Shown here piece by piece: positions 17,299 to 64,000 of a DNA stretch of 64,000 bases. Made by a program: the position numbers and the translations under genes. A model generated the notes under the pieces. The model worked only from the letters and a program-made list of their open reading frames with translations. It made no database searches and was not told where the DNA came from. The stretch is from Synergistaceae bacterium (lineage in GTDB: Bacteria; Synergistota; Synergistia; Synergistales; Aminobacteriaceae). The DNA lies in contig JAHDLC010000038.1 in the NCBI GenBank assembly GCA_018436595.1, forward strand, positions 1-64,000, written 5' to 3'. Position 1 is the stretch's first letter; each line of letters starts with the position of its first letter.

Positions 17299-17997
17299 TC
17301 ACTGGGAGGAAAAGCGGAATCCCACTCCTGGTTCCGTATGGATGTACCGCGGAAGGGAGGGATCCGGTTCGATCTTTTTCCTGAGGTTGCTCACGTGGAC
17401 GCGAAGAAGGGATGGGTCCCGTTCTTCCCTGTCGTCCCAGATTCTTTCGCTCAGCATGCGGTAGGTTACCACGCAGTCGATGTTCTGCGCGAGGAGGGAT
17501 AGAATCTCGAATTCCGTCCTCGTAAGGGAAATTTCCTGTTCCTTCCGCAGGAGCTGTCGTTTTGCCAGGTTGATGGTCAGGTCGCCTGCAACGATCTCCG
17601 GAGGCTGGATAATCCTCGATTCCGCCCGACGGAGAATGGCCCGTATCCTGGCGAGCAGCTCCCCCGCCTGGAAAGGTTTCGTGAGATAGTCATCGGCCCC
17701 CAGGTCAAGGGCCTGCACCTTGTCGCTCTCGTTCCCCCTGACTGAGAGGATCAGGATGGGGGAGTTCATCCAGGTGCGCAGTTCCCGGCAGACATCAAGG
17801 CCGTCCATATCGGGAAGGGAGAGGTCGAGGATGACGAGTTCCGGGTTGGTCTCGATGGCCTTTTCGATCCCTTCGGCGCCGCCGGAGGCAAGGGTTACGT
17901 CGTACTTCCGCAGGGACAGAATGGACTGGAGTGCCCTCCTGATGGATTCTTCGTCGTCGATGACCAGTATTCTGATGCTTCTCTCCGGGGAACTCAT
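17299..17997 (-). CDS. kdpE: KdpE-like OmpR-family response regulator
   Basis: About 232 aa. The receiver domain carries IDDEES (acidic pocket), VILDLSLPDMDGL (phosphoacceptor Asp) and LTKPFQ (Lys). The winged-helix DNA-binding domain ends RVHVSNLRKKIEPD...YIHTEPGVGFRF, close to KdpE. It overlaps the histidine kinase gene by four bases. In the family KdpE activates potassium-uptake genes; no kdpFABC is visible here, so the regulon may instead be the nearby TrkA gene. Confidence 0.85.
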   Translation of the reverse strand: MSSPERSIRILVIDDEESIRRALQSILSLRKYDVTLASGGAEGIEKAIETNPELVILDLSLPDMDGLDVCRELRTWMNSPILILSVRGNESDKVQALDLGADDYLTKPFQAGELLARIRAILRRAESRIIQPPEIVAGDLTINLAKRQLLRKEQEISLTRTEFEILSLLAQNIDCVVTYRMLSERIWDDREERDPSLLRVHVSNLRKKIEPDPSLPRYIHTEPGVGFRFSSQ

Positions 17998-19610: not shown

Positions 19611-20218
19611 TACGGGATTTCCGGTGGTTCCTCTTCCGGGACGAACAGCACGGCCCGGCACGGCGCCCCTTCCGCTCCTCTGATCTTGAGGGGGGCCGCC
19701 GAGAGGAAGTAGTTTCCGTCGGGAACTTCTTCCAGCCACAGGGATTCGATGAGGGCAACGCCTCCCGTGAGGAGAGGGATATGAATGCCCGCTTCGTTGT
19801 CCGGCGGGGCCACGGACGAGGCGTCCGTGCCCAGAGTAATGACCCCCCGTCTGAGGAGAAGAGCCGCTCCCGAGGGTGCGAGGAAGGATGTGCCTCCCGA
19901 TTTCAGCAGCAGCCGCGTCGTTCCTTCGGGGAGTCGGTTCCTGAGATCGTCTTCCGTGACGAGTCTGTTTTCCGGAACGGAAAGGACGAGGCATGGCCCG
20001 ATAAAGTGTTCGAGGGGCATCGAGGCGATGTCACTCCCGTCGCGGCAGAAGTGAAGAAAAGCGTCGCAGTGGGTGCCGGCATGAAGACTGCAGGAAAGGG
20101 AGCGGAGGTTGAAGTCCGCTCCCCTCTGCATGTCGAAGACTGTTTCCAGCTGCGGTTCCCGGTCGCCGGGGTAGACCGGCGACGAGAGCAGTTCCCGGGT
20201 GATGTCGTAGTATTTCAT
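19610..20218 (-). CDS. cyclase / kynurenine-formamidase family metal hydrolase
   Basis: About 202 aa. It has the family signature HAGTHCDAFLHF (HxGTHxD, metal ligands) and opens YYDITRELLSSPVYPGD as KynB-type proteins do. Members hydrolyse N-formylkynurenine, isatin or related amides. No other kynurenine gene is nearby, so the substrate is open. It is first in the unit leading into kdpD-kdpE. Confidence 0.82.
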   Translation of the reverse strand: MKYYDITRELLSSPVYPGDREPQLETVFDMQRGADFNLRSLSCSLHAGTHCDAFLHFCRDGSDIASMPLEHFIGPCLVLSVPENRLVTEDDLRNRLPEGTTRLLLKSGGTSFLAPSGAALLLRRGVITLGTDASSVAPPDNEAGIHIPLLTGGVALIESLWLEEVPDGNYFLSAAPLKIRGAEGAPCRAVLFVPEEEPPEIP

Positions 20219-20242
20219 GAACGGGGCTGCCTCTCCGGTCCC

Positions 20243-21355
20243 TTACAGGGAAAAGGGCTCCACAGTTTTGAAGATGCCCGTTTTCGTCATGTTCCGGCGG
20301 ATCTCAAAGCCGCCGATGGCTTCCACGGGGTCGATGTCCGACAGGGCGGAGAAGTTGATGTCCTTCCATTGGTCCCTGTGGACCCGAAGGCTGTAAAGAT
20401 ACTGGTCTTCCTCCCGGCCCGTGGAGGGCTGGATCTTCTGGGTGTACCCCGAAAGAACGATTTCGGTGATGGACGGGATGGTCCGGAAGACTTCCCCGAG
20501 AAGCAGGAAGGCGACGCCGTGGACGTGGCGTGCAAAATCCTTCCGTATCTGGGTTTCGCTTTTCGGCGACTCCGTGAGGCCGGAACGTTTCGAGTATCCG
20601 TAGACCGCCTGGGGCATGTCTTCTATTTCGGGAAGGTCCACGTCGAGAAACGCTATGGTCCCGTCCACCTGGTAGGAGACATGGGTTTCCCTGGGCCATT
20701 CGATGGAGGAGATCACCGCCTCGAGGGCAGCCTCGGGCTTTTCTCCGGAGAGCTGTACGGCTTCTTTGAAGCGGACGGCCCGCCGGGTTTCCTCCTGTTC
20801 AAAGGCTTTTTTCCGTTCCTCCCATTCAGCGAGGAGCAGGCTGTGCCCCTTCTTTCTGACATAGTAAATGTATCCTTCCCACAGCGCCCAGGGAATGAAG
20901 GAGAGTCCCCACGTGAAGTAGAGGAGGACAAGCGCCGCCGCCAGGACCGCTCCTCGCAGCCAGAGGGGGAAGGGGGCGGGGGGCAGGCCGGGAACGGGCT
21001 CACCGTATTCCCGGGGGGTATAGGCCGGGGCGGCCGAGGGCGGAAGGGTCCGGAGGTGGATGTCGATGATCTCCTGGACGGTGCTGTTCATCTCTTCCGC
21101 TGCGATTCTTCCCTCATCTGCCTGAGGGCTTCCCGCCGCCGGGCCGGATTTTTTCGTGCCGCCGGGCCAGGGAATGGGGAGCTTCTTTCGGTAGAAGATG
21201 CCCGACCCCGGAATGCCCACATTTGCATGGACGCCTCCCCTGCCTATTCCCAGGGTGGCTCCCTTCGGGCCGACGGTGGCGCTGACGCCGCTCTTGCTCA
21301 GGTTGATCCTGATTCCGGGCGCGATGGTGATGGTTTTCCGAAAGCGGATGCCCAT
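20243..21355 (-). CDS. DUF4236-domain membrane-associated protein
   Basis: About 370 aa. The first 55 residues are a DUF4236 domain (GIRFRKTITIAPGIRINLSKSG, GPKGATLGIGRGG), a beta-rich module of unknown function. A Pro-rich linker and a hydrophobic segment near residues 130-150 (LRGAVLAAALVLLYFTWG) follow. The C-terminal 200 residues, probably soluble, contain FLDVDLPEIEDMP and GVAFLLLGEVFRTIPSI. Function unknown. Confidence 0.7.
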   Translation of the reverse strand: MGIRFRKTITIAPGIRINLSKSGVSATVGPKGATLGIGRGGVHANVGIPGSGIFYRKKLPIPWPGGTKKSGPAAGSPQADEGRIAAEEMNSTVQEIIDIHLRTLPPSAAPAYTPREYGEPVPGLPPAPFPLWLRGAVLAAALVLLYFTWGLSFIPWALWEGYIYYVRKKGHSLLLAEWEERKKAFEQEETRRAVRFKEAVQLSGEKPEAALEAVISSIEWPRETHVSYQVDGTIAFLDVDLPEIEDMPQAVYGYSKRSGLTESPKSETQIRKDFARHVHGVAFLLLGEVFRTIPSITEIVLSGYTQKIQPSTGREEDQYLYSLRVHRDQWKDINFSALSDIDPVEAIGGFEIRRNMTKTGIFKTVEPFSL

Positions 21356-21468
21356 GATGCCCTTCTCATCCTCCTTCCGTTGCGGGGACGATGTTCACGT
21401 TTGTCTGCAGAAAGCTCAAAGGTCCGGTTTCTTTGCCGGATCCGTCCCCCGAAACATGGAAACGAAGT

Positions 21469-22410
21469 CTACGCTTCCTCTTCCTCTGGGTCGAAGAGCA
21501 GGTAGTCCCACCGTTCTTCGGTGATTTCCCTTCCCCAGATGACATGCTTCGCTTCCTCGGTGGGGGAGAACCCGTACATTTCGTACAGGTGGCGGGCCTC
21601 CCGGAGTTCCGAAAAGGTCCACAGGAAGATTCGCTTGTAGAGGTTCAGTCTGCAGAATTCCATGGCTTCGTCCATGAGGTGCCTTCCGATGCCCATGCCC
21701 CGGAATTCCGGGTGGACGAGAAGCCAGCGGAGCTTGGCCGTTGTGTCGTCCTCGTGGTCGATGGCTATGGAGCCGACAACGGTGCCGTTGTGGTCCGCAA
21801 CCCAGACGCCTCCCTTTCCGGCTTCCCTGTTTTTAAGGAACCGTGCCATGCCTTCGAAGAGATAGTATTCGAAAGAACTGTCAAGATCGTATTCCTTCAT
21901 GTAGAAGTCCATGTGCTGAGAGGCGACGATGCCGAGTTCTCCGGGCTTTGCCGTGCGGACGGTCACTTCCCTGGGATCGTTGGACAGAATGCCGCGGATG
22001 GTCTCCATGGACCTCAGGAGGGCTTCCACGTCAGTCTTGGGCATGGGGGTCAGCAGTTCCGACGCCCTCTGGTCCGAGGCTTTTTCGAGGGCGGTGAGAA
22101 CATGTTCTCCCCGGGGGGTGAGGCGGAGGATGTAGGCCCTGCCGTCCAGAGGAGACCGTTCCTTTTCGAGAAGTTCGTCATGCTCGAACCGGCGGATGAT
22201 CCGGCTGAGGTACCCCGGATCAAGGCCGAGCTGGACGTTGATGACGCTGGCCGTGGGGGACTCGTTGTGCTTGATCTCGTAGAGCACCCGCGCCTCGGCG
22301 AGGGAGAAGGGGCTGTTGAGCACCGACTGGTTGACCGCTCCTATGACTCCGGTGTAGTATCGGTTGAAACTGCGGATCTGTTTCGTAAACTGTTCAGGAA
22401 TGTCCTTCAC
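21469..22410 (-). CDS. MarR-family regulator fused to GNAT acetyltransferase
   Basis: About 313 aa. Residues 1-145 are a MarR winged helix (SVLNSPFSLAEARVLYEI, VQLGLDPGYLSRIIRRFE, LTPRGEHVL). Residues 150-313 are a GNAT domain with acetyl-CoA loop RWLLVHPEFRGMGIGRHLMDEA. This fusion is a known architecture; it may couple sensing of a small molecule to its acetylation. It has its own promoter, so it is separable from the radical-SAM gene upstream. Confidence 0.88.
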   Translation of the reverse strand: MKDIPEQFTKQIRSFNRYYTGVIGAVNQSVLNSPFSLAEARVLYEIKHNESPTASVINVQLGLDPGYLSRIIRRFEHDELLEKERSPLDGRAYILRLTPRGEHVLTALEKASDQRASELLTPMPKTDVEALLRSMETIRGILSNDPREVTVRTAKPGELGIVASQHMDFYMKEYDLDSSFEYYLFEGMARFLKNREAGKGGVWVADHNGTVVGSIAIDHEDDTTAKLRWLLVHPEFRGMGIGRHLMDEAMEFCRLNLYKRIFLWTFSELREARHLYEMYGFSPTEEAKHVIWGREITEERWDYLLFDPEEEEA

Positions 22411-26420: not shown

Positions 26421-26430
26421 AGGCTTATTC

Positions 26431-26521
26431 GCATCGGGGGAGTCCGGAAAGGACTGAGAGGGGGCATCGCCGCCCCGACCCCTGGAACCTGATCCGGGTT
26501 ATGCCGGCGAAGGGAAGGTGC
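26431..26521 (+). ncRNA. TPP riboswitch (THI element)
   Basis: All core THI-box blocks are in order: GGACTGAGAGGGG near 26451, ACCCCTGGAACCTGATCC near 26479, and GGGTTATGCCGGCGAAGGGA near 26495. GCATC (26431-26435) pairs with GGTGC (26517-26521) as P1. It lies 50 bases before the thiamine transporter ATG with no long T-run between, so control of translation initiation is more likely than termination. Thiamine pyrophosphate binding should lower thiT expression. Confidence 0.95.
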
Positions 26522-26571
26522 CCGCTTCAAGGACATTCCTCCGATGCATATCTGCAAAGGAGGATTTTTTT

Positions 26572-44385: not shown

Positions 44386-44461
44386 TGGTAGCCCCAACGG
44401 GATTCGAACCCGTGTTTTAACCTTGAGAGGGTTACGACCTAGGCCACTAGTCGATGGGGCC
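44386..44461 (-). tRNA. tRNA-Glu (anticodon CTC)
   Basis: 76 bases on the minus strand, with encoded CCA. The acceptor GGCCCCA pairs with TGGGGCT (one G-U pair), the D arm carries TAGTGG, the anticodon loop is CTCTCAA giving CTC, and the T arm is the standard GGTTCGAATCC. Confidence 0.95.
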
Positions 44462-44470
44462 ATTGCTTGC

Positions 44471-44544
44471 TGGCTGGGGAACCTGGATTCGAACCAAGAT
44501 TACCTGATCCAGAGTCAGGCGTCCTGCCATTGGACGATTCCCCA
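44471..44544 (-). tRNA. tRNA-Gln (anticodon CTG)
   Basis: 74 bases on the minus strand, with encoded CCA. The acceptor TGGGGAA pairs with TTCCCCA, the anticodon loop is CTCTGGA giving CTG, and the T arm is GGTTCGAATCC. Nine bases separate it from tRNA-Glu, so both are processed from one transcript. Confidence 0.95.
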
Positions 44545-51001: not shown

Positions 51002-51032
51002 TTGACATTGACACGATGTCAATGTCTATACT
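51002..51032 (+). promoter_or_regulatory. MerR-type promoter of the Nif11 precursor genes, 19-bp spacer
   Basis: TTGACA (51002-51007) and TATACT (51027-51032) with a 19-base spacer. A perfect dyad, GACATTGACA (51004-51013) and TGTCAATGTC (51017-51026) around CGA, fills the spacer and ends at the -10, as at merT or bmr promoters. Should be silent until the regulator twists it. Confidence 0.82.
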
Positions 51033-51073
51033 GTCCCAGAAGGGATTTTTTCGTTTTTGTATATCTTGGAGGA

Positions 51074-51349
51074 TTGAACATTTCTGCGGAATCTGCGGCA
51101 GCGTTCTACGGGCTTCTGGAAAAAAATCGGCACGACTTCACGCTGGAGGAGATGCAGAAAGTGATCTTCGGGAAGAATCCGGAGATGACCGACGAGGAAC
51201 TTGAGGCTGCCGCAGAAATTGCAGGTGTGTATATAACCTCTTCCGAAAAGGGAGAGCGTATAAAAGGAGGTCGTATTATATGTCGATGGAATCTGCAGCG
51301 GCGTTCTATGAGCGTCTCCAGAGTGACGCGACGCTTCAGGAAAACCTGA
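51074..51349 (+). pseudogene. decayed Nif11-type precursor paralogue
   Basis: The frame carries SAESAAAFYGLLEKN directly joined to HDFTLEEMQKVIFGKNPEMT. Compared with the intact gene at 51280 about 26 residues are missing between the two halves and the GG site is lost (EELEAAAEIAGVY). The codon aligned with the intact ATG reads ATT, while GGAGG upstream is kept; TTG 51074 is one base from that site and a poor substitute. The frame runs into the next gene out of phase. Confidence 0.65.
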
Positions 51350-51588
51350 AGGCGGCGGGGAACAGGGATCAGGTGGAAGCGTACGTGAAGGGGGAACTTG
51401 GTTATGACTTCACGAAGGAAGAGATGCAGAAGGTGGTTTTCGAACGGAATCCGGAGATGACCGACGAAGAGCTGGAGGCTGTCATCGGAGGAGCAAGCAA
51501 CGATATGATGTGGGGGATTACCATCGGCGTCGGCATCGGCGGTGGGCTGGGGATTATCGCCCTTGCGATCGCCGCTGCGGGTGCGTAG
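51280..51588 (+). CDS. Nif11-type RiPP precursor with Gly-rich hydrophobic core
   Basis: 102 aa. Leader residues 1-71 match the Nif11 domain (ESAAAFYERLQSDATLQENL, then YDFTKEEMQKV) and end MTDEELEAVIGG, a double-glycine export site at 70-71. The predicted core, 31 residues, begins ASNDMMWGITIGVGIGGG and ends in a hydrophobic, Ala-rich tail with GxxxG spacing and no Cys, suggesting a membrane-active peptide. AAAAGGAGG lies nine bases before ATG 51280. MerR-type promoter upstream; no modifying enzyme is immediately beside it, though the radical-SAM genes are 2.4 kb away. Confidence 0.88.
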   Translation: MSMESAAAFYERLQSDATLQENLKAAGNRDQVEAYVKGELGYDFTKEEMQKVVFERNPEMTDEELEAVIGGASNDMMWGITIGVGIGGGLGIIALAIAAAGA

Positions 51589-53178: not shown

Positions 53179-53610
53179 GTGAAAAAAGAAACCAAATCAC
53201 TGCCGGAAACGCTGCAGTCTGATCATATTGCAGGATTTTTTGGGGGAAACCCGGTTCTGCAGCTGTTCAGCGAGCCGCTGATTGACAACACTGCCAAGCT
53301 TTGTCATACTATTCCGGTATATTCTATCGACTTGGTCGGCCTTTGAAAAGCGGATATTTTGCTCTCCGACGAATCGCTGGAATCTGTTTTCCCCGGAACG
53401 GCCATCGTTCAGAGGTCTTTGATCGGGACTGTGAATGTGGTGCGCAAGAAGCAGATGACGGCCGCCTATTTTCTACCGGTATCTTTGTATTATAGCCAGA
53501 CGCAGGTTCATAAATCGATCGGTTGGTATTTTATATCAATTCGATTTCAAGTATTGGCTGAGGCATTGTACGTTTCAGCCAAAATACTCAACAAAGGAGA
53601 ACGGATATGA
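53179..53610 (+). pseudogene. reading frame interrupted by one in-frame TGA, upstream of the second precursor
   Basis: GTG 53179 (after AGGAAAAGG) opens 55 coding-like codons (KKETKSLPETLQSDHIAGFF) to a TGA at 53344. The same frame goes on with KADILLSDESLESVFPGTAI and ends at 53610 in an ATGA overlap with the Nif11 start. The second part resembles a leader tail. No family recognised. It could be a broken gene or two short ORFs that share a frame by chance; a candidate promoter lies inside it. Confidence 0.35.
53282..53312 (+). promoter_or_regulatory. candidate promoter with 19-bp spacer before the second precursor
   Basis: TTGACA (53282-53287), 19 bases, TACTAT (53307-53312). GACAA (53284-53288) and TTGTC (53301-53305) form a short dyad across the spacer. 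The spacer length recalls the two MerR-type promoters at 50.9-51.0 kb, but the dyad core differs and it is 300 bases from the precursor. Confidence 0.4.
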
Positions 53611-53876
53611 CGATTGACAGCGCAAAGGCATTGGCTGCAAAAGTTTTAACGGACGAAGCTCTGGCGAAAAAATTGGGTGACGCGAAAACCGAGGCGGAAT
53701 TTAATGCGGTGGTTGCAAAACTGGGGTACACCTGCACAGCGGTGGAATTTGAGGCTGCCTTCAAAGAGGCACAGGAAAACACGCCACTCACTGATGAGCA
53801 GCTGGACCAGGCGTCCGGCGGTTTGAGCATTGTCGGTGTGGATTACGCATTTGTAGCTGTTCAAACATCAAAATAA
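53607..53876 (+). CDS. Nif11-type RiPP precursor with 17-residue core
   Basis: 89 aa. Nif11 leader residues 1-72 (DSAKALAAKVLTDEALAKKL, TEAEFNAVVAKLGYTCT) end in LTDEQLDQASGG with the double glycine at 71-72. The predicted core is LSIVGVDYAFVAVQTSK: five Val/Ile-type residues in the first eleven, one Tyr, a C-terminal Lys and no Cys, so thioether bridges are excluded within the core. AAAGGAG precedes ATG 53607. It heads a run of four radical-SAM genes, with a hairpin between them that should keep precursor mRNA in excess. GC and codon use are lower than in flanking housekeeping genes. Confidence 0.88.
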   Translation: MTIDSAKALAAKVLTDEALAKKLGDAKTEAEFNAVVAKLGYTCTAVEFEAAFKEAQENTPLTDEQLDQASGGLSIVGVDYAFVAVQTSK

Positions 53877-53910
53877 ACGAAGGGGGTTTCCCTCTTCACG
53901 AGCAGTAGCG

Positions 53911-53939
53911 GCGGAGACCGGAAATTGTCCGGTCTCCGC
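53911..53939 (+). terminator. attenuating hairpin between precursor and radical-SAM genes
   Basis: GCGGAGACCGGA (53911-53922) and TCCGGTCTCCGC (53928-53939) form a perfect 12-bp stem with a five-base loop. No T-run follows, so partial termination or mRNA 3' protection is expected rather than a full stop. Confidence 0.7.
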
Positions 53940-53959
53940 TTCAGGGCGGAGGCAATCAC

Positions 53960-55711
53960 GTGGAGGTACTTTTTATAAAATCGCATCGCTATGTCAGCGG
54001 CTATATTCCCGGAAGCAACCTGGGAATGAACATATTGATACAATTGCTGACACGAAAAGGATATTCAGCCCGGATGTACCAGGGCTATGCCAAAGAAGCC
54101 CTGAATTATGTGAAAGAACTCATGGACAGCGAGGACCGGCCGAAAGTCATCGGTTTTTACTGTGATTTCGACAATGTTCACTGGGTGAAGACCTTTGCGC
54201 GGGAAGTGAAAAAAGAGTACCCCGAAGTGATTCTGCTGGCAGGCGGTCCTCAAACTGTCGACATGGACGCCGTTTTTTTTAAAGAGACGGGTATTGCCGC
54301 TGTCTGCATCGGAGAAGGGGAAGAAACGGTTCCGGAGCTCATGGAGTTTTTCATCCATCATCGCGGTGCTCTGGAGGCGATCCAGGGAATAGCGTTTCTG
54401 GACGCCTCGATGGAGCTTGTGAAAACACCCCCGAGAACCCCGCCGGAGGATCTGGATGATATTCCCTGGCCGGACATCACCTTGACCAACGATTATAAGC
54501 ACTACGCGCTTCTCCCCATTTTAACCGGACGGGGCTGTCCTTTCGGATGCACCTTCTGTTACGAGGGGGCCAATGCCAAACGGGTGCGCCGCCACTCGGT
54601 TCCCTCGCTGATGAAGGAAATAAGGGCGAATTTTAAACGCAATCCGGACATAAAGTATATTAATTTTCTTGATGACACTTTTACGCTGGATTCAAAACGG
54701 GTCCGTCAGATTTGCGAAGAGATCAGAGAAATCCGGAAAGAATATGATTTCGTATGGTTTGCCAGCGCCCATATTTCACTCATCGACAAACACCGGGACA
54801 TGGCACGGAATCTGGCGGAAGCAGGGCTGAAAAAAATCTTCTTCGGTCTGGAATCCGGCAGCGACGCGGTTTTACAAAGCTATAACAAGAAAATAACCCG
54901 GAAAATGGCGGTGGACGTCATCGAGCATTGCGTTGCATCGGGTATTTCCGCTATTTCCGGCAATATTATCCTGGGAGGTCCCCACGAAACCCGGGAAACC
55001 ATTCGGGAATCCGAAGATCTGATCATGGAACTGCTTCACCGGGCGCCGGGGCAGTTTGAAACCGCCTATTTCTCCTTTCTGCCTTTTCCCCAAACGCCTA
55101 TTACGATGAATCCTCAAAAATTCGGGATGGAAATTTACGGGGACCTCATCGACTGCTGCAACGAAGACATTCCTCTATCAGGAACGAAAACGCTGGATTT
55201 TCTCGATCTTACCCAGATTCGGCTTGAGGCCAACAGGCGACTCCAGAATGAAATGCGGAAGATCTATCTCGACGGAAAGATTCCCGAGGCCGTGATTCTG
55301 GATGCGTACCGTTCAGGAGGGCGCTACGGAGTGTTTACCCGCTGGAACGACTATGTGTACAAAAATCTGCCCATTGACGATGCCTACTGGAAAATGCGGG
55401 TTTTCGGCGGGTATGCCGTCAGCAGCCAACTGGGAGCTTGCCAGGAGGACGCCATCCCGCACCGGACCTTCGAACTGTGGCTGTATACCGACATCGGCGG
55501 GGAAAAACCGAAGATTTTCGATACAGTTCTGGACGAAATAGACTATACCCTTCTTCAATTATGCAGCGGGAAACTCTCGAAACGGGAAGTACTTCAGCAG
55601 GGGAAAATGATGCTTGACCCTTCGGGGTGCCGGCCTGATTTTTACACACGGGCGGAAGAATCGCTGAATTTCCTGGAAAAGAAGAAATGGATTCTCTACC
55701 AGAAAGCATGA
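53960..55711 (+). CDS. B12-binding radical SAM RiPP maturase (module 1)
   Basis: 583 aa. Residues 1-150 form a cobalamin-binding-like Rossmann domain (VIGFYCDFDNVHWVKTFARE, ILLAGGPQTVDMDAVF, CIGEGEETVPELMEF) without DxHxxG. The radical SAM ligands are C193, C197 and C200 (GRGCPFGCTFCYEGAN), followed by FLDDTFTLDSKR, KKIFFGLESGSDAV and GNIILGGPHETRET. The last 60 residues (DYTLLQLCSGKLSKREVLQQ and onward) resemble a PqqD-type winged helix for leader binding. GTG 53960 follows GGAGG at seven bases. Likely modifies the upstream 17-residue core; C-methylation is a known activity of B12 relatives, epimerisation or cyclisation are alternatives. Confidence 0.87.
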   Translation: MEVLFIKSHRYVSGYIPGSNLGMNILIQLLTRKGYSARMYQGYAKEALNYVKELMDSEDRPKVIGFYCDFDNVHWVKTFAREVKKEYPEVILLAGGPQTVDMDAVFFKETGIAAVCIGEGEETVPELMEFFIHHRGALEAIQGIAFLDASMELVKTPPRTPPEDLDDIPWPDITLTNDYKHYALLPILTGRGCPFGCTFCYEGANAKRVRRHSVPSLMKEIRANFKRNPDIKYINFLDDTFTLDSKRVRQICEEIREIRKEYDFVWFASAHISLIDKHRDMARNLAEAGLKKIFFGLESGSDAVLQSYNKKITRKMAVDVIEHCVASGISAISGNIILGGPHETRETIRESEDLIMELLHRAPGQFETAYFSFLPFPQTPITMNPQKFGMEIYGDLIDCCNEDIPLSGTKTLDFLDLTQIRLEANRRLQNEMRKIYLDGKIPEAVILDAYRSGGRYGVFTRWNDYVYKNLPIDDAYWKMRVFGGYAVSSQLGACQEDAIPHRTFELWLYTDIGGEKPKIFDTVLDEIDYTLLQLCSGKLSKREVLQQGKMMLDPSGCRPDFYTRAEESLNFLEKKKWILYQKA

Positions 55712-57396
55712 AAAGGCCGCCCCTCGTTCTCCTCGTGTACACCCAGCGGCTTGTTCCGGGGCGAACCTTTGAAATGATCGGGAACCTGGGGGTTCTCACC
55801 CTGGCGGCCCAGCTCAATGCCGGCGGCTTCGACGCAAAAGCCTATACCGGTATCACCACCGATGTCGTTAAAACCATCGGAGGAATAAAAGACCGCCTGT
55901 TCGCTGTCTGTTTTTACTGCGACTTCGACAATCAGTCGGCGGTGGCAGCCATTATCAATGATCTGAAAAAAGAAGCCGGAAATGCCTTTTACGTAGTGCT
56001 GGGAGGACCGCACACGCTGCACATGACGGAACGGGATCTGGAAAAATACGGCGCGGACGCCATCATCAAGGGAGAAGGGGAAGAATCCCTGCCCGCATGG
56101 CTGGGGGCGCGCATTTCGGGAGAAACGGCCGCCGTGCCGGGAGAAATCCTTCCCCATGAGAATCCGGAGTACGTCTATCTGGAGGATTTCTCTCACTATC
56201 AACTGCCACAGGATGAAGCTGTGCCGGATTATTCGGAGAGACCCCTGATGTCGGTGATAACGGCCAGAGGCTGTCCCTACCGGTGCGCATTCTGTTTCGA
56301 AGGCGGCAATTCGAAAAATTTGAGAATGCGGACTGCGGACGATGTGTTGTTCGAAATCGAAACACGGCTGCAGAAAAGCCGGGGTCCCCGGTACCTGTTT
56401 TTTTGCGACGACACCTTCACCGCCAATCCTCAAAGGCTGGAAAAGCTGCTTGCAGGATTGAGACGCCTTCGAAAAAAACTTGATTTTGTCTGGTTCTGCG
56501 AAGGGCATCCGGGGTTTCTTTCACAACGCCCGGAGCTGATCAAAGAAATGATGGAGAGCGGTATGGTCCGGATGCAGATCGGGATGGAGTCCGGAGCTGA
56601 TTCCGTTCTTCAGGCCTACGGGAAGCAGGCCGTCCCGGAGGACGTGAAGAATGTTGTGGATACCTGCTACCGAGAGGGACTGCCCCAGCTCGCAGGAAAC
56701 TTTATCATCGGCGGGGCCTTTGAAACTCCGCACACCCTCGAGGCAACCACCCGTTTTGCCCTTGACCTGCTCGAGCGGGCTCCGGGGATGCTGGATTTAT
56801 CCACTACCTTTCTGACGCCGCTGCCGGGTACCCTGATCTCCGGGGATCCCGGGCGTTTCGATATCGTGCTGGAAGACCAGGACTGCCTCACCTCAATGGA
56901 GGATTTTCCGGTGAACCGAACCCGGGAGCTGTCCCTGCCGGAAATATGCAGGGCACGCTCCGCCTTTCTCACACGCGTTTCGAACACCATGAAAGAGCAG
57001 TTCAGGAACGGCCGGATTCCCGAAAGGCGGATTCGCCGTGACTTCGAGCTTGCCTTTCGATATGGCATCGCGGCGGGGTACCTGAAGTTTATCTACGGCC
57101 GGAACCCGGTCATGGTGAGTTACTATCGAAAACTTACGGAGTACCGGGGGCTTTTGAAGGAATGGGAGGAGCTTGAAGGTGCTCAAAAGGAACGGTATGT
57201 CATCCAGCGCATTCCGGATTTTTCGCAGGTGGATTTCGAAAGCCTGAACGGGATGGAATCGGAAATTCTTCTGGATGCAGGTTTGTATTCGGTGGACGAG
57301 ATGGCGAAGAAGCTGGCCGTATCGGCTGAGGAAATGGCCGTGTACCTTGAAGGACTGAGCCGCCGTCATCTGGTGTTATTTTCCCCCTGCCTCTGA
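55708..57396 (+). CDS. B12-binding radical SAM RiPP maturase (module 2)
   Basis: About 562 aa, same plan as module 1. Rossmann part (VCFYCDFDNQSAVAAIIN, VVLGGPHTLHMTERDLEK, IKGEGEESLPAW), radical SAM ligands C189, C193, C196 (ARGCPYRCAFCFEGGN), FFCDDTFTANPQR, RMQIGMESGADSV and GNFIIGGAFETPHT. The C-terminal end (SEILLDAGLYSVDEMAKKLA, then VYLEGLSRRHLVLF) is the winged-helix-like part. ATG 55708 overlaps the previous stop (ATGA); ATG 55687 is possible. Divergent from its neighbours, so a different reaction or site is likely. Confidence 0.86.
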   Translation: MKRPPLVLLVYTQRLVPGRTFEMIGNLGVLTLAAQLNAGGFDAKAYTGITTDVVKTIGGIKDRLFAVCFYCDFDNQSAVAAIINDLKKEAGNAFYVVLGGPHTLHMTERDLEKYGADAIIKGEGEESLPAWLGARISGETAAVPGEILPHENPEYVYLEDFSHYQLPQDEAVPDYSERPLMSVITARGCPYRCAFCFEGGNSKNLRMRTADDVLFEIETRLQKSRGPRYLFFCDDTFTANPQRLEKLLAGLRRLRKKLDFVWFCEGHPGFLSQRPELIKEMMESGMVRMQIGMESGADSVLQAYGKQAVPEDVKNVVDTCYREGLPQLAGNFIIGGAFETPHTLEATTRFALDLLERAPGMLDLSTTFLTPLPGTLISGDPGRFDIVLEDQDCLTSMEDFPVNRTRELSLPEICRARSAFLTRVSNTMKEQFRNGRIPERRIRRDFELAFRYGIAAGYLKFIYGRNPVMVSYYRKLTEYRGLLKEWEELEGAQKERYVIQRIPDFSQVDFESLNGMESEILLDAGLYSVDEMAKKLAVSAEEMAVYLEGLSRRHLVLFSPCL

Positions 57397-57548
57397 GGCA
57401 CCGTACATGTGAGCGGTTCTGCAGGCAGTATCTGAAGATGCGAGCGATCCTGTCGGCCGGATGCCTGCCCTGACGTGGGCGCCGGGGGAGGTTTCTCGAA
57501 GGGCCGGCAGCAGGTTGCGCATAATTATTTAACATTCGGAGGCGCGGC

Positions 57549-60500
57549 GTGAAAACGATCAACCTGAGACTGATGCTGATTCATCGCGGAACGAGAACCC
57601 ATTCGATCACCCAGATCGAGCCCATCGGTCTTATGTCGCTGGCGGAGATGATGACCGGCAAGGGGATCGAAACGGCCGTTTTTTCAGGAGAGCTGCTGAA
57701 AGGCCTGGAATTCCTGAACGCGGCTGGCTGCAGCCGGAACACGGTAGTGGGATTATATTGTGATTACGAGAATCAGTCGGCGGTCGAGAGTTTTTCCAGG
57801 GTGGTCAAGGAGCGTTTCGGCGCCGTCGTTCTGGTGGGCGGACCCCAGACCGTGGGGCTGGGAGAAGAGTTCCTGCGGGCGAGCGGGGCTGACGGGATCA
57901 TGCGGGGCGAAGGGGAGTACTCGCTGCACGACGCTCTCCGCGCATTGGAAGAAGACCGGAGGGACCTGTGGGAGACCATCCCCGGGATGTGTTCGTTCAG
58001 AAAGGACGGGACCTGGTACGACAACGGGATCTATCCCGTCATCGAGGATCTGGACGCCGTCCCCGGCATTTCGGGAACCATAAAATCGGCCCAGCACCGC
58101 GGCATCAATCACATGGCGGTGATGACGGGACGGGGGTGTCCTTTCCACTGCTCTTTCTGTTACGAGGGGGCCAACAGCAAGAACGTCAGGCAGCGCAGCG
58201 TGGCGTGCGTCATGAAGGAAATACGCCGGCGCCTGCGGGAGAATCCCAATGTGAAGTATCTCTTTTTCTGCGACGATACCTTCACCCTGGATATGAAACG
58301 GGTGCGCGCCTTTTGTGATGAACTGAAAGAGCTGAGGAAAGAGCACGATTTCGTCTGGTTCGCCGACGCCCATGTGAACGTGGTCATCAAATATCCCGAA
58401 ATGGTGAAGATGATGGTGGACGCCGGCCTGGTCCGGATGCAGATCGGCATTGAAAGCTGCAACCAGCACATCATAGACATCTATAACAAAAACGTGAAAC
58501 GGGAAGGGTTCTTCGAAGTCATTGAGATATGCAAAGCGGCCGGACTTCCGCAGCTGGTGGGCAACATCATCATCGGCGGGGCTCTGGAAACGCGGGAAAC
58601 GCTGAATTTTACCTTCGACACCGTCTATGAGATGCTGCGCGCGGGCCGCGGAATGGTGGAAGTGGTCAGCACTTTTTACATGCCCTTTCCGGAAACCGCC
58701 ATGTCAAAGGATCCCGGCGGGTACGGCCTTTTTGTGAGGGACGAAAAGGCGCTCACCTCGGTGGGGGATTTTCCGGTGATCGAGACGGAGACACTGAGCA
58801 TCGAAGAAATCTGCGCGGCCCGAAACGAGTTTTTTGAAGGGACGACCGGAGTTATGCGGAAAATGTTCCGCGACGGCGAAATCCCGGACGAGACCGTGCT
58901 GAAAAGCTGCGAGCTGAGTGAAAAATACGGTCTCAGCGGGATGTGGCAGAGTCTTGCGTACGCCAGATACCCCTATTTCGACGCCCAGAACAAGGCGCGG
59001 GTCCGCGGGGATAAGCTCACACGGGACTATGATCTTTCAACGGTGTTTGAAACCCATCCCCAGCGCATTGCCCTGCTTTCCCTGACACCTGAGCTGGCGG
59101 CGGAAATTCCGGTCCTGAACGGATTTGTCTACTCGCCCTTTGAATTCGACGTCCTGACGTACACCTCCGGCAAACTGTCCATGCTCGAAATGGCGGAGGC
59201 GCTTTTCCCCAAGTATCAGACGAGCTTCGAAAGTTTTGAGATGTTCAGGCTCCATCTGCTGGAAACCGTCAAAAAACTGGAAGCGGCGGGAATGTGCGTG
59301 CTGTCCGGCTCATTGAAGCCGAAAGCGGCCGATCTGGAATGGAAAAATCAAAAACACTCAGAGGAGCGCCCTGTGAAAAACAAGGTCATTCTGTTCAAAG
59401 TATCGACCATCAGTATGGAGATAGCCGGCTTCAGCCGAAACGGAGCCTTTCTGGGACTCTACAGCCTGGTAAGCTACCTGAATGAAAAAGGGTATGACGC
59501 CGTTGCCTGCGAATGCAGGCCGGACCAGGTCACGGAGCATCTTCGGCGGCTTCCGTCCGGTGAAATATGCTGCGTCGGTTTTTCGGTGGACTTCGAGAAC
59601 AGGCACGCAGTGAAAAAAATCAGCGCTTCCATAGCGGAATCCTGCGGGATACCTGTGCTGATCGGCGGCCCCGAAGCTCTTTCTCTGGATGAGGAGTACC
59701 TGCGCGGATCAAAGGCAGCCGCTGTCGTGCGAGGCGAAGGTGAACTGGCCATGGCGGCGGTACTGGATGCATTGAAAGAAAAGAAGAGCCTCGGTGATAT
59801 TCCCGGAATCTTCTTCATCGACGAAAACGGGAAGTGCATCGACAGGGGAGAAGGGCCGGTGGTGGAAAATCTTGATGAGCTGCCCTTCCCTGACTACGAT
59901 AAAACCATGACGCCCATTGATTACTCCAACCTGTACATCATGACCAGCCGGGGCTGCCCCTATCACTGTGTCTTCTGTCATGAAGGCGCCCTGAAACGGC
60001 CCGTTCGCCGGCGGAGCGTCGCGAATGTCGTCGCTGAAATGCGCTCCCTGCTTCTCAAATATCCGGAACTTCGCTACTTTTTATTCTGCGACGACACCCT
60101 GGTCACCAGCCCCGAATGGTTGGATGAATTTTGCCGGGAGGTAAAGGCGCTTCAGGCCGTCAGACCATTCCAGTTCTATTGCGAGGCTGATGTCGCTTCC
60201 CTGAGCAGACGACCCGGGGTCATTAAGGACATGGTGGCGGCGGGGCTCAACAGGCTGCAGATCGGCATAGAATCCGCCGACAGGGAGATGCTGAAGACAT
60301 ACCGCAAAAACATCACTCCCGAAATGGTGGAAACAGTGGTGAAAGCGGCGTATGACGCCGGAGTCCAGCAGGTTTTCGGCGCGATCCTGGTGGGAGGGCC
60401 CTTCGAGAACCGCGGGCATATCGAAAAGAACAAAGCCTTCTGCGCAAAGCTGCTGCGGCTGGGGCCGGGGATGATGGAAATCGCACCCAGTATCCTGATG

Positions 60501-61139
60501 CCCTATCCAATGACCGATATCGGGCAGCACCCCGAAAAATACGGGCTGACGATTTACGACAGGCAGGGGCTGAGAAGCATCTCCGATTATCCCCTCATGG
60601 AGAGCGAAACCATGGATCGGCGGGAGATCATGGCAGCCTACCAGGAGTACATTCAGAGCTTTGTGGACGAAGTGAAGGCGATGCTGAACAGCGGCGAGCT
60701 CGGCCATGAGGATCTTCTGCGCTGTCACCGCGCCTCCATGAATTCAAAGGGAGCGAAATACTGGGTGAATATCATAGCCCACCATAAACCTTTCCTCACA
60801 ACCTATTACACTCTGCTGGCACGGGAGGCAGCCTACCGCATCGCGGATGTGAAGCCGGATGAGCTTCCCGGATGGCGCCCCCAGCGGCTGATCGAGATGT
60901 GGCGGGATGTGGATTTTTCCCGGGGCTATCCTCTCGTGCGGGGAGAGGCGCTGTCGCCTTTTGAATACGAGGTGCTGAAATACTCCACTGGAAAGAGCAC
61001 CATCGCCGATATTGCCGGAATCCTCCACGAGCGGTTCGGAAAGCCGTTCGGAGAAACCCGGGAAGAATTGATGGAGAGAATCATTGAAACCTTGAAGGCT
61101 TTTGACGGAAAATACTGGCTGCTTGTCGTTCCGTACTAG
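57549..61139 (+). CDS. tandem fusion of two B12-binding radical SAM modules (modules 3 and 4)
   Basis: 1196 aa, twice the usual length. Module 3 (1-605): VVGLYCDYENQSAVESFSR, ligands C197, C201, C204 (GRGCPFHCSFCYEGAN), FFCDDTFTLDMKR, RMQIGIESCNQHI, winged-helix-like end YSPFEFDVLTYTSGKLSMLE. Module 4 (609-1196): CVGFSVDFENRHAVKKISA, ligands C803, C807, C810 (SRGCPYHCVFCHEGAL), FCDDTLVTSPEW, RLQIGIESADREM, end LSPFEYEVLKYSTGKSTIAD. Between them GAGGAG (59361-59366) stands seven bases before an in-frame GTG (59373), a relic or working internal start. GTG 57549 follows GGAGG. Confidence 0.86.
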   Translation: MKTINLRLMLIHRGTRTHSITQIEPIGLMSLAEMMTGKGIETAVFSGELLKGLEFLNAAGCSRNTVVGLYCDYENQSAVESFSRVVKERFGAVVLVGGPQTVGLGEEFLRASGADGIMRGEGEYSLHDALRALEEDRRDLWETIPGMCSFRKDGTWYDNGIYPVIEDLDAVPGISGTIKSAQHRGINHMAVMTGRGCPFHCSFCYEGANSKNVRQRSVACVMKEIRRRLRENPNVKYLFFCDDTFTLDMKRVRAFCDELKELRKEHDFVWFADAHVNVVIKYPEMVKMMVDAGLVRMQIGIESCNQHIIDIYNKNVKREGFFEVIEICKAAGLPQLVGNIIIGGALETRETLNFTFDTVYEMLRAGRGMVEVVSTFYMPFPETAMSKDPGGYGLFVRDEKALTSVGDFPVIETETLSIEEICAARNEFFEGTTGVMRKMFRDGEIPDETVLKSCELSEKYGLSGMWQSLAYARYPYFDAQNKARVRGDKLTRDYDLSTVFETHPQRIALLSLTPELAAEIPVLNGFVYSPFEFDVLTYTSGKLSMLEMAEALFPKYQTSFESFEMFRLHLLETVKKLEAAGMCVLSGSLKPKAADLEWKNQKHSEERPVKNKVILFKVSTISMEIAGFSRNGAFLGLYSLVSYLNEKGYDAVACECRPDQVTEHLRRLPSGEICCVGFSVDFENRHAVKKISASIAESCGIPVLIGGPEALSLDEEYLRGSKAAAVVRGEGELAMAAVLDALKEKKSLGDIPGIFFIDENGKCIDRGEGPVVENLDELPFPDYDKTMTPIDYSNLYIMTSRGCPYHCVFCHEGALKRPVRRRSVANVVAEMRSLLLKYPELRYFLFCDDTLVTSPEWLDEFCREVKALQAVRPFQFYCEADVASLSRRPGVIKDMVAAGLNRLQIGIESADREMLKTYRKNITPEMVETVVKAAYDAGVQQVFGAILVGGPFENRGHIEKNKAFCAKLLRLGPGMMEIAPSILMPYPMTDIGQHPEKYGLTIYDRQGLRSISDYPLMESETMDRREIMAAYQEYIQSFVDEVKAMLNSGELGHEDLLRCHRASMNSKGAKYWVNIIAHHKPFLTTYYTLLAREAAYRIADVKPDELPGWRPQRLIEMWRDVDFSRGYPLVRGEALSPFEYEVLKYSTGKSTIADIAGILHERFGKPFGETREELMERIIETLKAFDGKYWLLVVPY

Positions 61140-61153
61140 AAAAAGGTGATGCG

Positions 61154-62866
61154 ATGAAGATTCTTCTCTGCAACGTATCGAAAAAGTACGATACAAACAC
61201 CCATGATTATGTGGGGCTTTTTTACCTGGCGGGCGCCCTGGAAGAGGCCGGCTTTGAGCCTTTGGTGTTTCATGGAAAGCCGGAACATCTCCTGGACGAG
61301 ATAGAAAAGAACAAGCCCCGGGCGGTGGGTTTTTCCTGTGATTTCGACAATGTCCGGGTCATCGAAGACCTGTCAGGGAAAATAAAGAAGCGCTGGGGAA
61401 TTCCCGTTGTTGTGGGCGGGCCCCAGAGCATTGCTCTGGGAAGGGATTTTCTGGAAAAAAGCGGGGCTGACTATATCCTGCGGGGCGAAGGCGAAGTCTC
61501 TCTGCCCAGACTGCTCGATGCGGTCCTGAAGGATGAAGGGGATGTCGACGGGGTGAAGGGGCTGGCGAGAATTCAGGACGGAGTGTTTCTGGAAAACCCG
61601 CCCGAGATCATCGAGGATCTGGATGCTCTGCCCCTGCCGGCGTACTCAGCATCGCTGCATGCGGACCACGCCTACGGCAACTTGATTTTTACCGGCCGGG
61701 GGTGCCCCTACCGGTGCGCATACTGCGCCCCCAGCCCCGGCAAGCGGAAGGTTCGCCTGAGAAGCATTCCGCTGGTACTGGAGGAAATCAAAGTCAATCT
61801 GAAAAACAATCCGGGGCTGAAGTGCCTGATCGTTATGGACGACACCTTCACTCTCGGCCGGGAGCGGATCGAAGAATTCTGCCGCGGCATGACGGAGCTG
61901 CGGAAAGAGCGTGACCTGGTCTGGTACTGTGAATGCCATGTCGGCCGAATCAGGGACTTTATGGATATCCTGCCCGCCATGATCGACGCCGGGCTGATCC
62001 GTCTGCAGATCGGGATAGAATCAGGTGATCAGAACGTCATCGACCAGTACAACAAGCACGTCAAAATCGACGACATCGTTGAATTTGTAACCTACGCGGC
62101 CGACTGCGGCCTCGCCCAGATCGCCACAAACTTCATCGTGGGGGGGCCCGCAGAAAAAGACGGGGCGACCGCCTCGCTGATCCGGACCCTGATCGATCGG
62201 GCCCCCGGAGTCATCGATATCATTACCGGTTTTTTACGGGCCTACCCGGGGACCGAGATCTTCGAGAACCCGGGAAAATTCAACCTGCAGCTCCATGACG
62301 AATCCGGCCGCCGGACCGGGGACGACTACCCGTTCGTAACGCCGGTCGGATGCAGCCAGGACCAGGTGATGCGCCAGCGCCAGGAACTCAACAGGGTGAT
62401 TCGCCGCAGCATGCAGCAAAAAATCAAACACCGCGGGCTGAAAGAGGACGCGGTGAGGAAGCAGTTCGAAGCCGCATTCAAATACGGGATCCGAAGCCGG
62501 TGGTTCGCGGAAATTTCGGCCAATCCCAGGGCCTACGAATATTATTATGTGCTTTTTTTGAACGAGGGCCAAGCCTTTGAGGAATCCCTGGATTTTTCCA
62601 GAGATTATCCCCAGCGGACCTTTGAATTATGGCGCGCCATGACGTTTTCCGACGGATTTCCGCAGCTGGACGGTATGGCGCTCTCGCCGCTGGAGTATGA
62701 ACTGCTGTTGCGCTGCGCCGGCAAACGAAGCCTGAAGAAAATTCAGACCGAGCTTTATGAGGTGTTCGGCGGCTCGTATGAAAACGAGAGGGAATTCCAT
62801 CGGCAGCTCATCGATATGCTGCATCGTTTTGATTCTAAATACTGGCTGACCCATTTCGTGGTGTAG
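61154..62866 (+). CDS. B12-binding radical SAM RiPP maturase (module 5)
   Basis: 570 aa. Rossmann part (AVGFSCDFDNVRVIEDLSG, VVVGGPQSIALGRDF, LRGEGEVSLPRLLDA), ligands C184, C188, C191 (GRGCPYRCAYCAPSPG), VMDDTFTLGRERIEEF, RLQIGIESGDQNV and NFIVGGPAEKDGA. It differs from the others after the cluster: CAPSPGKRKV replaces the C[YFH]EG pattern. The C-terminal winged-helix-like end reads LSPLEYELLLRCAGKRSLKKI. ATG 61154 follows AAAGGTG, 14 bases after the previous stop. Last gene of the operon, convergent with the exporter. Confidence 0.86.
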   Translation: MKILLCNVSKKYDTNTHDYVGLFYLAGALEEAGFEPLVFHGKPEHLLDEIEKNKPRAVGFSCDFDNVRVIEDLSGKIKKRWGIPVVVGGPQSIALGRDFLEKSGADYILRGEGEVSLPRLLDAVLKDEGDVDGVKGLARIQDGVFLENPPEIIEDLDALPLPAYSASLHADHAYGNLIFTGRGCPYRCAYCAPSPGKRKVRLRSIPLVLEEIKVNLKNNPGLKCLIVMDDTFTLGRERIEEFCRGMTELRKERDLVWYCECHVGRIRDFMDILPAMIDAGLIRLQIGIESGDQNVIDQYNKHVKIDDIVEFVTYAADCGLAQIATNFIVGGPAEKDGATASLIRTLIDRAPGVIDIITGFLRAYPGTEIFENPGKFNLQLHDESGRRTGDDYPFVTPVGCSQDQVMRQRQELNRVIRRSMQQKIKHRGLKEDAVRKQFEAAFKYGIRSRWFAEISANPRAYEYYYVLFLNEGQAFEESLDFSRDYPQRTFELWRAMTFSDGFPQLDGMALSPLEYELLLRCAGKRSLKKIQTELYEVFGGSYENEREFHRQLIDMLHRFDSKYWLTHFVV

Positions 62867-62957: not shown

Positions 62958-64000
62958 CTATACCGTCTGCCTGCGGACCAGCTCTGCGAAAAGACCGTCC
63001 TTCGCCATCAGCTCGTCGTACTTCCCCTCCTCGACGAGCCGGCCGTCCTCCAGAACGCAGATCCGGTCCGCTCCGATGACAGTGGAGAGCCGGTGCGCAA
63101 CGACGATGCGCGTCGCCTGGATGTTCTCCAGGCTCCGGCTGATCATCGCCTGCGTTCTGTTGTCCAGGGCGCTCGTAGCCTCGTCGAAGATGAGCACACG
63201 CGGCTTCCCGGCAACGGCGCGGGCGATCAGGAGGCGCTGCTTCTGTCCGCCTGAAACCGTGTTCGCCCCGTCCGTGATGACCGTATGAATCCCCATGGGC
63301 ATCGCGGCGATGTCCTCTTCCATCCCCGCCGTGCGAAGCGCATCCTCTATCTGCCCGGCCGTGAGATTGCGCGAGCAGCGCACGTTGGAGGCTATGTCCC
63401 CGGAGAGCAGTCCGCCGCTCTGGAGGACGACGCCGATCTGCCGCCGCAGTTTCCCCAGGTCCAGTTCGGCAATGTCCTTGTTGTCGTAGAAGATGCCTCC
63501 CGACTCCGGCTGGTCGAAACCCAGGAGCAGCCGGATAAGCGTGGACTTGCCCGCCCCGGAGGGACCGACCACGGCGACGAACTCCCCTGCCTCAATGTGG
63601 AGGTCAAGTCCTTTCAGCACGGGAGGGCCGTCCTTCAGATAGCGGAAGACAACCCCTTCAAGGTCGATACGACCTGTGATTTCGCCCGGGTCGGTCTTCA
63701 TGTCGCCGGTCTCGGGCTCCGCCCGGAGGATGGGTGCGAGGTTCTCCACCAGCGGAAGCATGTTCAGCGTGGCTGTAAACGAGCTGACCATCTGAAAGAA
63801 GGCCCCTTGCAGCGCCCCGAAGGCCGACCAGAAGGCCATGAAGCGCCCCGTTTCGTACGAGGCGTCCGCAGCGCTCCAGCGGACAAGGGCAAAGAGAATA
63901 ACGATGGCGACGGAGAGGGGGAAGAGTGCCATGACCGTGTTCAGAAAAACTTCCAGCCGTCTCGCCTTCGTCCCCAGCATCCGCTGCGCTCCGAACAACT
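62958..64000 (-). CDS. NHLP-type peptide-export ABC transporter, C-terminal part (runs off the window)
   Basis: At least 346 aa; the gene continues past 64000. End of the membrane domain (MALFPLSVAIVILFALVRW, LNMLPLVENLAPILRAEPE) then the ATPase with VVGPSGAGKSTLIRLLLG, the Q-loop region GVVLQSGGLLSGDIASNV, signature VSGGQKQRLLIARA and VLIFDEATSALDN, H-loop VVAHRLSTV. The ATPase features match the exporters paired with Nif11/NHLP precursors (NHLM family), one of which carries a C39 peptidase that cuts after GG. Whether this copy has that domain or is its peptidase-free partner cannot be seen. Presumed exporter for one or both precursors. Confidence 0.85.
   Translation of the reverse strand, partial: LFGAQRMLGTKARRLEVFLNTVMALFPLSVAIVILFALVRWSAADASYETGRFMAFWSAFGALQGAFFQMVSSFTATLNMLPLVENLAPILRAEPETGDMKTDPGEITGRIDLEGVVFRYLKDGPPVLKGLDLHIEAGEFVAVVGPSGAGKSTLIRLLLGFDQPESGGIFYDNKDIAELDLGKLRRQIGVVLQSGGLLSGDIASNVRCSRNLTAGQIEDALRTAGMEEDIAAMPMGIHTVITDGANTVSGGQKQRLLIARAVAGKPRVLIFDEATSALDNRTQAMISRSLENIQATRIVVAHRLSTVIGADRICVLEDGRLVEEGKYDELMAKDGLFAELVRRQTV

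Follow-up and report, generated by a model that had tools for sequence, protein, structure and literature searches.

A conserved Nif11 precursor peptide and five B12-type radical SAM modules form a probable RiPP pathway in Synergistota and Bacillota

We analyzed a 64,000-nucleotide stretch of the genome of a Synergistaceae bacterium (GenBank assembly GCA_018436595.1, contig JAHDLC010000038.1, positions 1 to 64,000; hereafter, the window) and focused on a gene cassette at 53607-62866, in which a Nif11-leader peptide is followed by four downstream genes. This cassette probably represents a self-contained pathway for a ribosomally synthesized and post-translationally modified peptide (RiPP), in which one Nif11 precursor is modified in turn by five B12 (cobalamin)-dependent radical S-adenosylmethionine (SAM) enzymes and exported by an NHLP system. 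An original prediction from the letters of the window had proposed a RiPP operon with multi-step tailoring of one core. Comparative sequence analysis supports this proposal, as one core was found to be co-conserved with five groups of paralogous enzymes in two phyla. The features of the cassette and its exporter are as follows.

53593..53599, + strand: Shine-Dalgarno-like AAAGGAG, 5' of the precursor (from sequence).
53607-53876, + strand: precursor gene, 89 amino acids (aa) (TIGR03798, PF07862).
53607..53822, + strand: Nif11-type leader with double-glycine site at its end (TIGR03798 45.7 bits, PF07862 38.2 bits).
53823..53873, + strand: core peptide LSIVGVDYAFVAVQTSK (codon-level alignment).
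53879..53940, + strand: two RNA hairpins, 53879-53897 and 53910-53940, in the precursor-gene A spacer (folding z-scores).
53960..55711, + strand: module A, B12-binding and radical SAM, 583 aa (PF02310, PF04055; orthologue group A).
55687..57396, + strand: module B, B12-binding and radical SAM, 569 aa, or 562 from start 55708 (PF02310, PF04055; orthologue group B).
57549..59357 (boundary approximate), + strand: module C, N-terminal half of a 1196-aa fusion encoded at 57549-61139 (PF02310, PF04055; orthologue group C).
59358..61139 (boundary approximate), + strand: module D, C-terminal half of the 1196-aa fusion (PF02310, PF04055; orthologue group D).
61154..62866, + strand: module E, 570 aa (PF02310, PF04055; AlphaFold2 model; orthologue group E).
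62585..62863, + strand: predicted C-terminal winged-helix domain of E, RiPP recognition element (RRE)/PqqD-like (fold match; similar domains end A, B, C and D).
62958..63998, - strand: NHLP export ABC2, continuing beyond the window (TIGR03797, 483.9 bits for the visible part).
G000:C20:65931-69471, past the window: ABC1 with C39-type peptidase, and HlyD.

All five open reading frames are intact and on the plus strand. The layout had been described as a precursor and four same-strand genes encoding five complete modules, and reading frames and Pfam scores agree with it: PF02310 and PF04055 exceeded their cut-offs in all four proteins, with two copies of each in the 1196-aa protein. The first cysteine of the CxxxCxxC motif lies at C193, C196, C197, C803 and C184 in modules A to E, respectively. 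The earlier positions match the sequence, with C189 for module B presupposing translation from the ATG at 55708, which lies in an ATGA overlap and is a better start than 55687. These cysteines were invariant in an alignment of 46 rows. The 89-aa precursor scored above the cut-offs of TIGR03798 (Nif11 leader; 45.7 versus 32.3 bits) and PF07862 (38.2 versus 23.8 bits), with its GG at residues 71-72 and a core of 17 aa, in keeping with the Nif11-type peptide originally described.

The same gene set was sought in other genomes, as had been suggested, and the cassette was recovered in 23 other loci from Synergistota and several families of Bacillota. Scanning of genome contigs for module E revealed relatives of 71-83% identity in Synergistaceae metagenome-assembled genomes (MAGs), Acetobacterium (dehalogenans, wieringae, paludosum, tundrae, bakii and MAGs), Sporomusa malonica, Ca. 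Formimonas warabiya and a Thermoclostridium MAG, and a relative of 51% identity in one further Synergistaceae MAG. Whole-genome searches added three more cassette genomes, one of the genus of the window and two of the Acetobacterium class (E at 75 and 65% identity). Wherever the contig was long enough, the cassette comprised the precursor and all five modules, the latter 60-89% identical to their counterparts in the window. The family scores and the recurrence of the complete set at 23 further loci exclude a chance origin of the cassette. Modules occurring mostly without a Nif11 precursor had been named as the result that would speak against the prediction; the orthologue loci were instead found to carry the precursor in 23 of 24 cases, the exception being a contig of 4.6 kb, truncated within C and E. 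The precursor lies either within the cassette or at its start in both gene orders, which are precursor-A-B-CD-E in Synergistota versus CD-E-precursor-A-B in Bacillota, a circular permutation. By contrast, among remote single-module relatives (30-39% identity; loci L084, L028-L030 and L086-L090) the precursor was absent or of another leader type. Thus, the Nif11 link belongs to the quintet and not to the enzyme superfamily.

The cassette was detected in 5 of 188 Synergistota, 3 of 391 genomes of the Acetobacterium class and 2 of 398 of the Formimonas phylum (one being a diverged cluster), with one close match among 250 genomes of the Sporomusa class. GC content is 54.8% in the cassette, compared with 60.1% over the initial 50 kb of the window. 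This patchy distribution, the lower GC content and the locus-specific flanks point to horizontal transfer. The cassette of Ca. Formimonas warabiya (L042) is located between two rRNA operons (1-1032 and 17853-21713), an insertion-prone setting.

Codon-level alignment of 25 precursors yielded the core consensus LSIVGVDYAF[TV]..., in which Gly5, Asp7, Tyr8 and Phe10 are invariant. The LSIVGVDYAF segment was almost fixed despite varied codons, a constraint far beyond neutral drift; thus, it is the peptide that is under selection. Between the invariant Y8 and F10, residue 9 can be A, P or T, and variation is higher past residue 11. Nif11 precursors usually have variable cores, unlike the nearly fixed core of this cassette. 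The GG was kept in all 25 close precursor copies. The genomes of A. dehalogenans, A. paludosum and A. bakii have no Nif11 peptide other than that of the cassette. Some A. wieringae-type loci encode two or three precursors, the extra cores of which differ (ITLVGIDYPFVMTPIVP and TSMIGFDYPFVMTPIVP). In genome G379, an otherwise normal five-module cassette also contains a second precursor of the Nif11 type (L070, 7071-7313, - strand), and its core, ARGIDFYENSIW, differs markedly from the others.

A distant genome, G1139, was found to encode six modules around one precursor (L085, G1139:C15:59000-78000). Compared to the window, the leader of this precursor is 37% and its core (LTFVGIDYAFVGVKTSSG) 65% identical; the GG is lost and Y-x-F is kept. 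None of 200,000 shuffles reached this core match, and L085 is the most stringent test of core conservation. The GG precursor and ABC1 co-occur: no C39-type NHLP transporter (TIGR03796) was detected in G1139, and all eight other genomes checked, each with a GG precursor, have one. A papain-family protease gene adjoins the L085 cluster and could plausibly replace the C39 peptidase in leader removal; alternatively, the G1139 genome may be incomplete.

In a tree of 64 modules, five groups were resolved. The L085 counterparts of A, B, D and E branch at the base of their respective groups (99-100% support), the link of group C to L085 being unsure. The basal position of these counterparts indicates that the five duplications are older than the spread of the cassette. 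All modules scored below cut-off for every named NCBIfam equivalog listed; thus, none of the modules is a catalogued enzyme. The family search suggested in the original prediction bore out the B12-binding and radical SAM families at their Pfam cut-offs but not the rSAM_ocin type, as scores against rSAM_ocin_1 (TIGR03975) were 28 to 141 bits, below its cut-off of 281.85. Similarly, the model of ApyD (NF050148) gave 56 to 187 bits against a cut-off of 750, and was the best NCBIfam match of E at 106 bits. The AlphaFold2 model of E (pLDDT 92.7) had its best fold matches among the cobalamin radical SAM structures MgmA, CysS, TokK, TsrM and OxsB, plus AprD4, and its fold is that of the class 1 cobalamin radical SAM enzymes.

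The C-terminal part of every module forms a further domain of about 75-95 residues. In E, this domain is predicted to have three strands, three helices and one strand, an RRE/PqqD-like order, and it matched the RREs of TbiB1, TigE, lasso B1, ThcOx, LynD/TruD and PqqD with Z of 6-8.6. Hidden Markov models of PqqD matched 9 of 41 module members, weakly. Winged-helix proteins that are not RREs also matched the domain of E; we regard the modelled C-terminal domain of the modules as a probable RRE.

NHLP export had been part of the original prediction, and the ABC1 and ABC2 families (TIGR03796 and TIGR03797) were both found near the cassette. ABC1 with its C39-type peptidase (65931-68081; TIGR03796, 986.5 bits) is located 3 kb beyond E, and the genome has no second ABC1. 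In Acetobacterium the exporter is part of the operon, which extends through a periplasmic binding protein (PF13458, 159.5 bits) located between the enzymes and the exporter, then HlyD, ABC1 and ABC2. The NHLP genes next to the cassette are its probable exporter. A second RiPP cluster, on the minus strand past the right edge of the window (L024, G000:C20:62958-74766), shares this exporter. It encodes the NHLP ABC2 and ABC1, HlyD, two Nif11 peptides, a TfuA-like protein and YcaO (a thioamide-type pair) and an asparagine-synthase-like protein, is the site of the other Nif11 peptides of the genome, and places YcaO/TfuA enzymes within about 12 kb of the cassette. The earlier count of one precursor thus holds for the cassette but not for its neighbourhood, where further Nif11 peptides lie past the window edge and another is encoded at 51280-51588 (+ strand; TIGR03798, 58.8 bits). 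The core of the latter peptide is glycine-rich, hydrophobic and class IIc bacteriocin-like (weak PF10439), and the overlapping frame at 51002-51349 looks like a broken Nif11 leader fragment.

At each of 12 loci examined, the precursor is separated from gene A by a spacer predicted to form stable hairpins (z of -2.6 to -6.8), with sequences that differ between the two phyla. In several Bacillota loci, the strand that can close hairpin 1 has an alternative pairing partner in the purine-rich ribosome-binding region upstream of A. These hairpins may, in the manner of a brake, hold enzyme output below that of the peptide. No cobalamin riboswitch or other Rfam element was detected at gathering scores in the cassettes of the window, L034, L042 and L047, and matches to a sigma-70-like promoter upstream of the cassette occurred at about the chance rate. 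Elsewhere in the window are a TPP (thiamine pyrophosphate) riboswitch and two tRNA genes (26426-26533, + strand; 44389-44544, - strand).

From the parts, their conservation, the single enzyme set per core, the domain folds and the presence of an exporter, all computed directly, we infer the following order of steps. The RRE-like C-terminal domain of each module would bind the precursor leader, and the five enzymes, each with its own task, would modify the first ten or so residues of the core, L-S-I-V-G-V-D-Y-A-F. The commonest reaction, by analogy, would be methylation of unactivated side-chain carbons, with Ile3, Val4, Val6, Tyr8 and Phe10 as candidate sites, and one enzyme may instead link Tyr8 to Phe10 in a three-residue ring. 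The C39-type peptidase of the NHLP transporter would then cut after Gly-Gly and the product would be exported, most likely as a secreted small-molecule effector or inhibitor. Sequential site-specific C-methylation is favoured because of the precedents of bottromycin and ApyD, and the Tyr8-Phe10 cross-link is considered possible because of that of PbsB. Epimerisation has no specific support, the relatives by sequence and fold being mostly C-methyltransferases.

In the bottromycin (bot/btm) pathway, three radical SAM methyltransferases carry out four C-methylations on one short core (PMC5103208); similar to what we propose, several site-specific B12-type radical SAM enzymes serve one short aliphatic/aromatic core (PMC5103208, PMC11285071), where methylation in the cassette would be by analogy. 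Bottromycin differs in having an N-terminal core, a follower peptide and YcaO-type cyclisation (in part from PMC11285071), whereas the cassette has an N-terminal Nif11 leader, five modules and NHLP export, with no YcaO or other tailoring gene. Polytheonamides likewise use more than one B12-dependent radical SAM enzyme per core, PoyB and PoyC being two C-methyltransferases with Ile and Val among their sites (PMC11285071), but with a proteusin leader, a 49-residue core, an epimerase and a dehydratase, and PoyC has Cx7Cx2C rather than the CxxxCxxC of the modules. ApyD of the aminopyruvatide pathway is an RRE-bearing B12-dependent radical SAM enzyme that beta-methylates Tyr in GYLYD (PMC10635010), in a pathway that unlike the cassette combines one such enzyme with an MNIO, a P450 and a methyltransferase. 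As a precedent for cross-linking ApyD was ruled out, since it methylates Tyr and the P450 makes the cross-link (PMC10635010). Cyclopropylglycine formation by TvgB (TVGG motif) was dropped as an analogue, its paper giving no sign of B12 dependence. The Nif11/NHLP bacteriocin systems (TIGR03796, TIGR03797, TIGR03798) share the leader, GG site and exporter with the cassette but differ in tailoring enzymes.

Certain observations weigh against the pathway as drawn above. The loop under the cobalt carries Trp76 in TokK and Asn186 in OxsB (PMC13331322). In our alignment, the modules carry the signature [CV]-D-[FY]-[DEN]-N in this loop, with Asp/Glu where TokK and CysS have Trp and Asp at the position of OxsB Asn186, so that their cobalt surroundings may differ from those of known methylases. 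Methylation is only a prior, as two of the closest solved structures, OxsB and AprD4, belong to enzymes without methyltransferase function. In addition, winged-helix proteins other than RREs match the C-terminal domain of E about equally well, and loci L048 and L027 have no adjacent exporter, though their genomes have one. A tentative alternative is a cross-linked ring peptide, in which at least one module joins the aromatic-x-aromatic Y8-x-F10 motif by a C-C bond and methylation is secondary. PbsB, a B12-dependent radical SAM enzyme of biphenomycin-like peptides, acts on a core motif of this type and joins two o-Tyr across one residue, and three-residue rings recur among RiPPs (PMC12257519). 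The invariance of Y8 and F10 around the variable residue 9, the retention of the motif in L085 and cobalt-face residues unlike those of TokK and CysS would suit such a ring. PbsB, however, requires ortho-hydroxylated rings made by an MNIO, and the cassette has neither MNIO nor P450; moreover, one cross-link needs one enzyme, not five, and the second G379 precursor, if a substrate, is without the motif.

The role of the product can also be read differently. That it serves anaerobic metabolism in a housekeeping-type role, as a cofactor, metal carrier or signal derived from the peptide, and is not an antagonist, seems unlikely to us, even though this would explain a frozen core that is almost invariant between phyla, the Acetobacterium binding protein located as for uptake or sensing, and hosts of which several are acetogens or related C1 anaerobes. 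The evidence for transfer marks the cassette as dispensable, antibiotic RiPPs such as bottromycin likewise have fixed cores, and the PF13458 protein was seen only in Acetobacterium-type loci. Patchy, transferred genes fit an effector or inhibitor, and the fixed core and binding protein fit a cofactor or signal. We find it very improbable that the enzymes act on another substrate, with the Nif11 peptide a passenger or serving a neighbouring cluster. The remote relatives in cassettes without Nif11, and the YcaO/TfuA enzymes with their own Nif11 peptides nearby, would agree with this, but the constant place of the peptide in the cassette, its being the sole Nif11 peptide of three Acetobacterium species and the retention of the core in L085 despite a diverged leader argue against it. 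Going beyond the self-contained pathway that we prefer, one might speculate that a fixed, heavily radical-modified decapeptide has a conserved biological target, or acts as a cofactor or signal, in strict anaerobes from two or more phyla, and is made by five (in one lineage, six) dedicated B12-dependent radical SAM enzymes, at least one of which performs chemistry other than methylation; we put this forward as a possibility only.

Related systems were also observed. The closest single-module relatives (30-39% identity; L028, L029, L086, L087 and L088) reside in a different conserved cassette without a Nif11 peptide, found in Synergistota and the Sporomusa class, that may be an undescribed system. 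Its genes, named by eye from motifs, encode a GTPase-like protein of about 600 aa (GAVKAGKSSLGN), a radical SAM-like protein of about 390 aa (start MQIILKLTTACNLNCVYCSEGD or similar), the B12-dependent radical SAM module and a second GTPase-like protein of about 570 aa (GIYNAGKSSILNE). About 90 kb from the cassette of Sporomusa malonica, a further locus (L084, G193:C28:23000-42000) encodes two precursors with leaders that by eye are nitrile-hydratase-like, two B12-dependent radical SAM modules and an NHLP exporter, and thus pairs the same enzyme family with another leader type.

In a genome paper of 2019, antiSMASH flagged a seven-gene cluster of A. woodii and further Acetobacterium species as 'bacteriocin'; it encodes a Nif11 peptide and HlyD along with radical SAM and B12 radical SAM proteins (PMC6925170). 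This is very probably the same locus as the cassette, reported there without core analysis, chemistry or comparison across phyla. Beyond that paper, the literature searched, mostly outside subscription journals, held no account of the core, enzymes, spread or product of the cassette; no paper was found for the core string VGVDYAF or for Nif11 combined with 'B12-dependent radical SAM'. The cassette is an unusually dense set of B12-dependent radical SAM enzymes for a single short substrate. As these enzymes have been separate paralogues since before the cassette spread, each is expected to have its own site or reaction, and because the core is nearly invariant, one product structure would answer for the whole family. 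The cassette is present in cultured Acetobacterium and Sporomusa species, and the function of a conserved RiPP of anaerobes could be tested by gene deletion.
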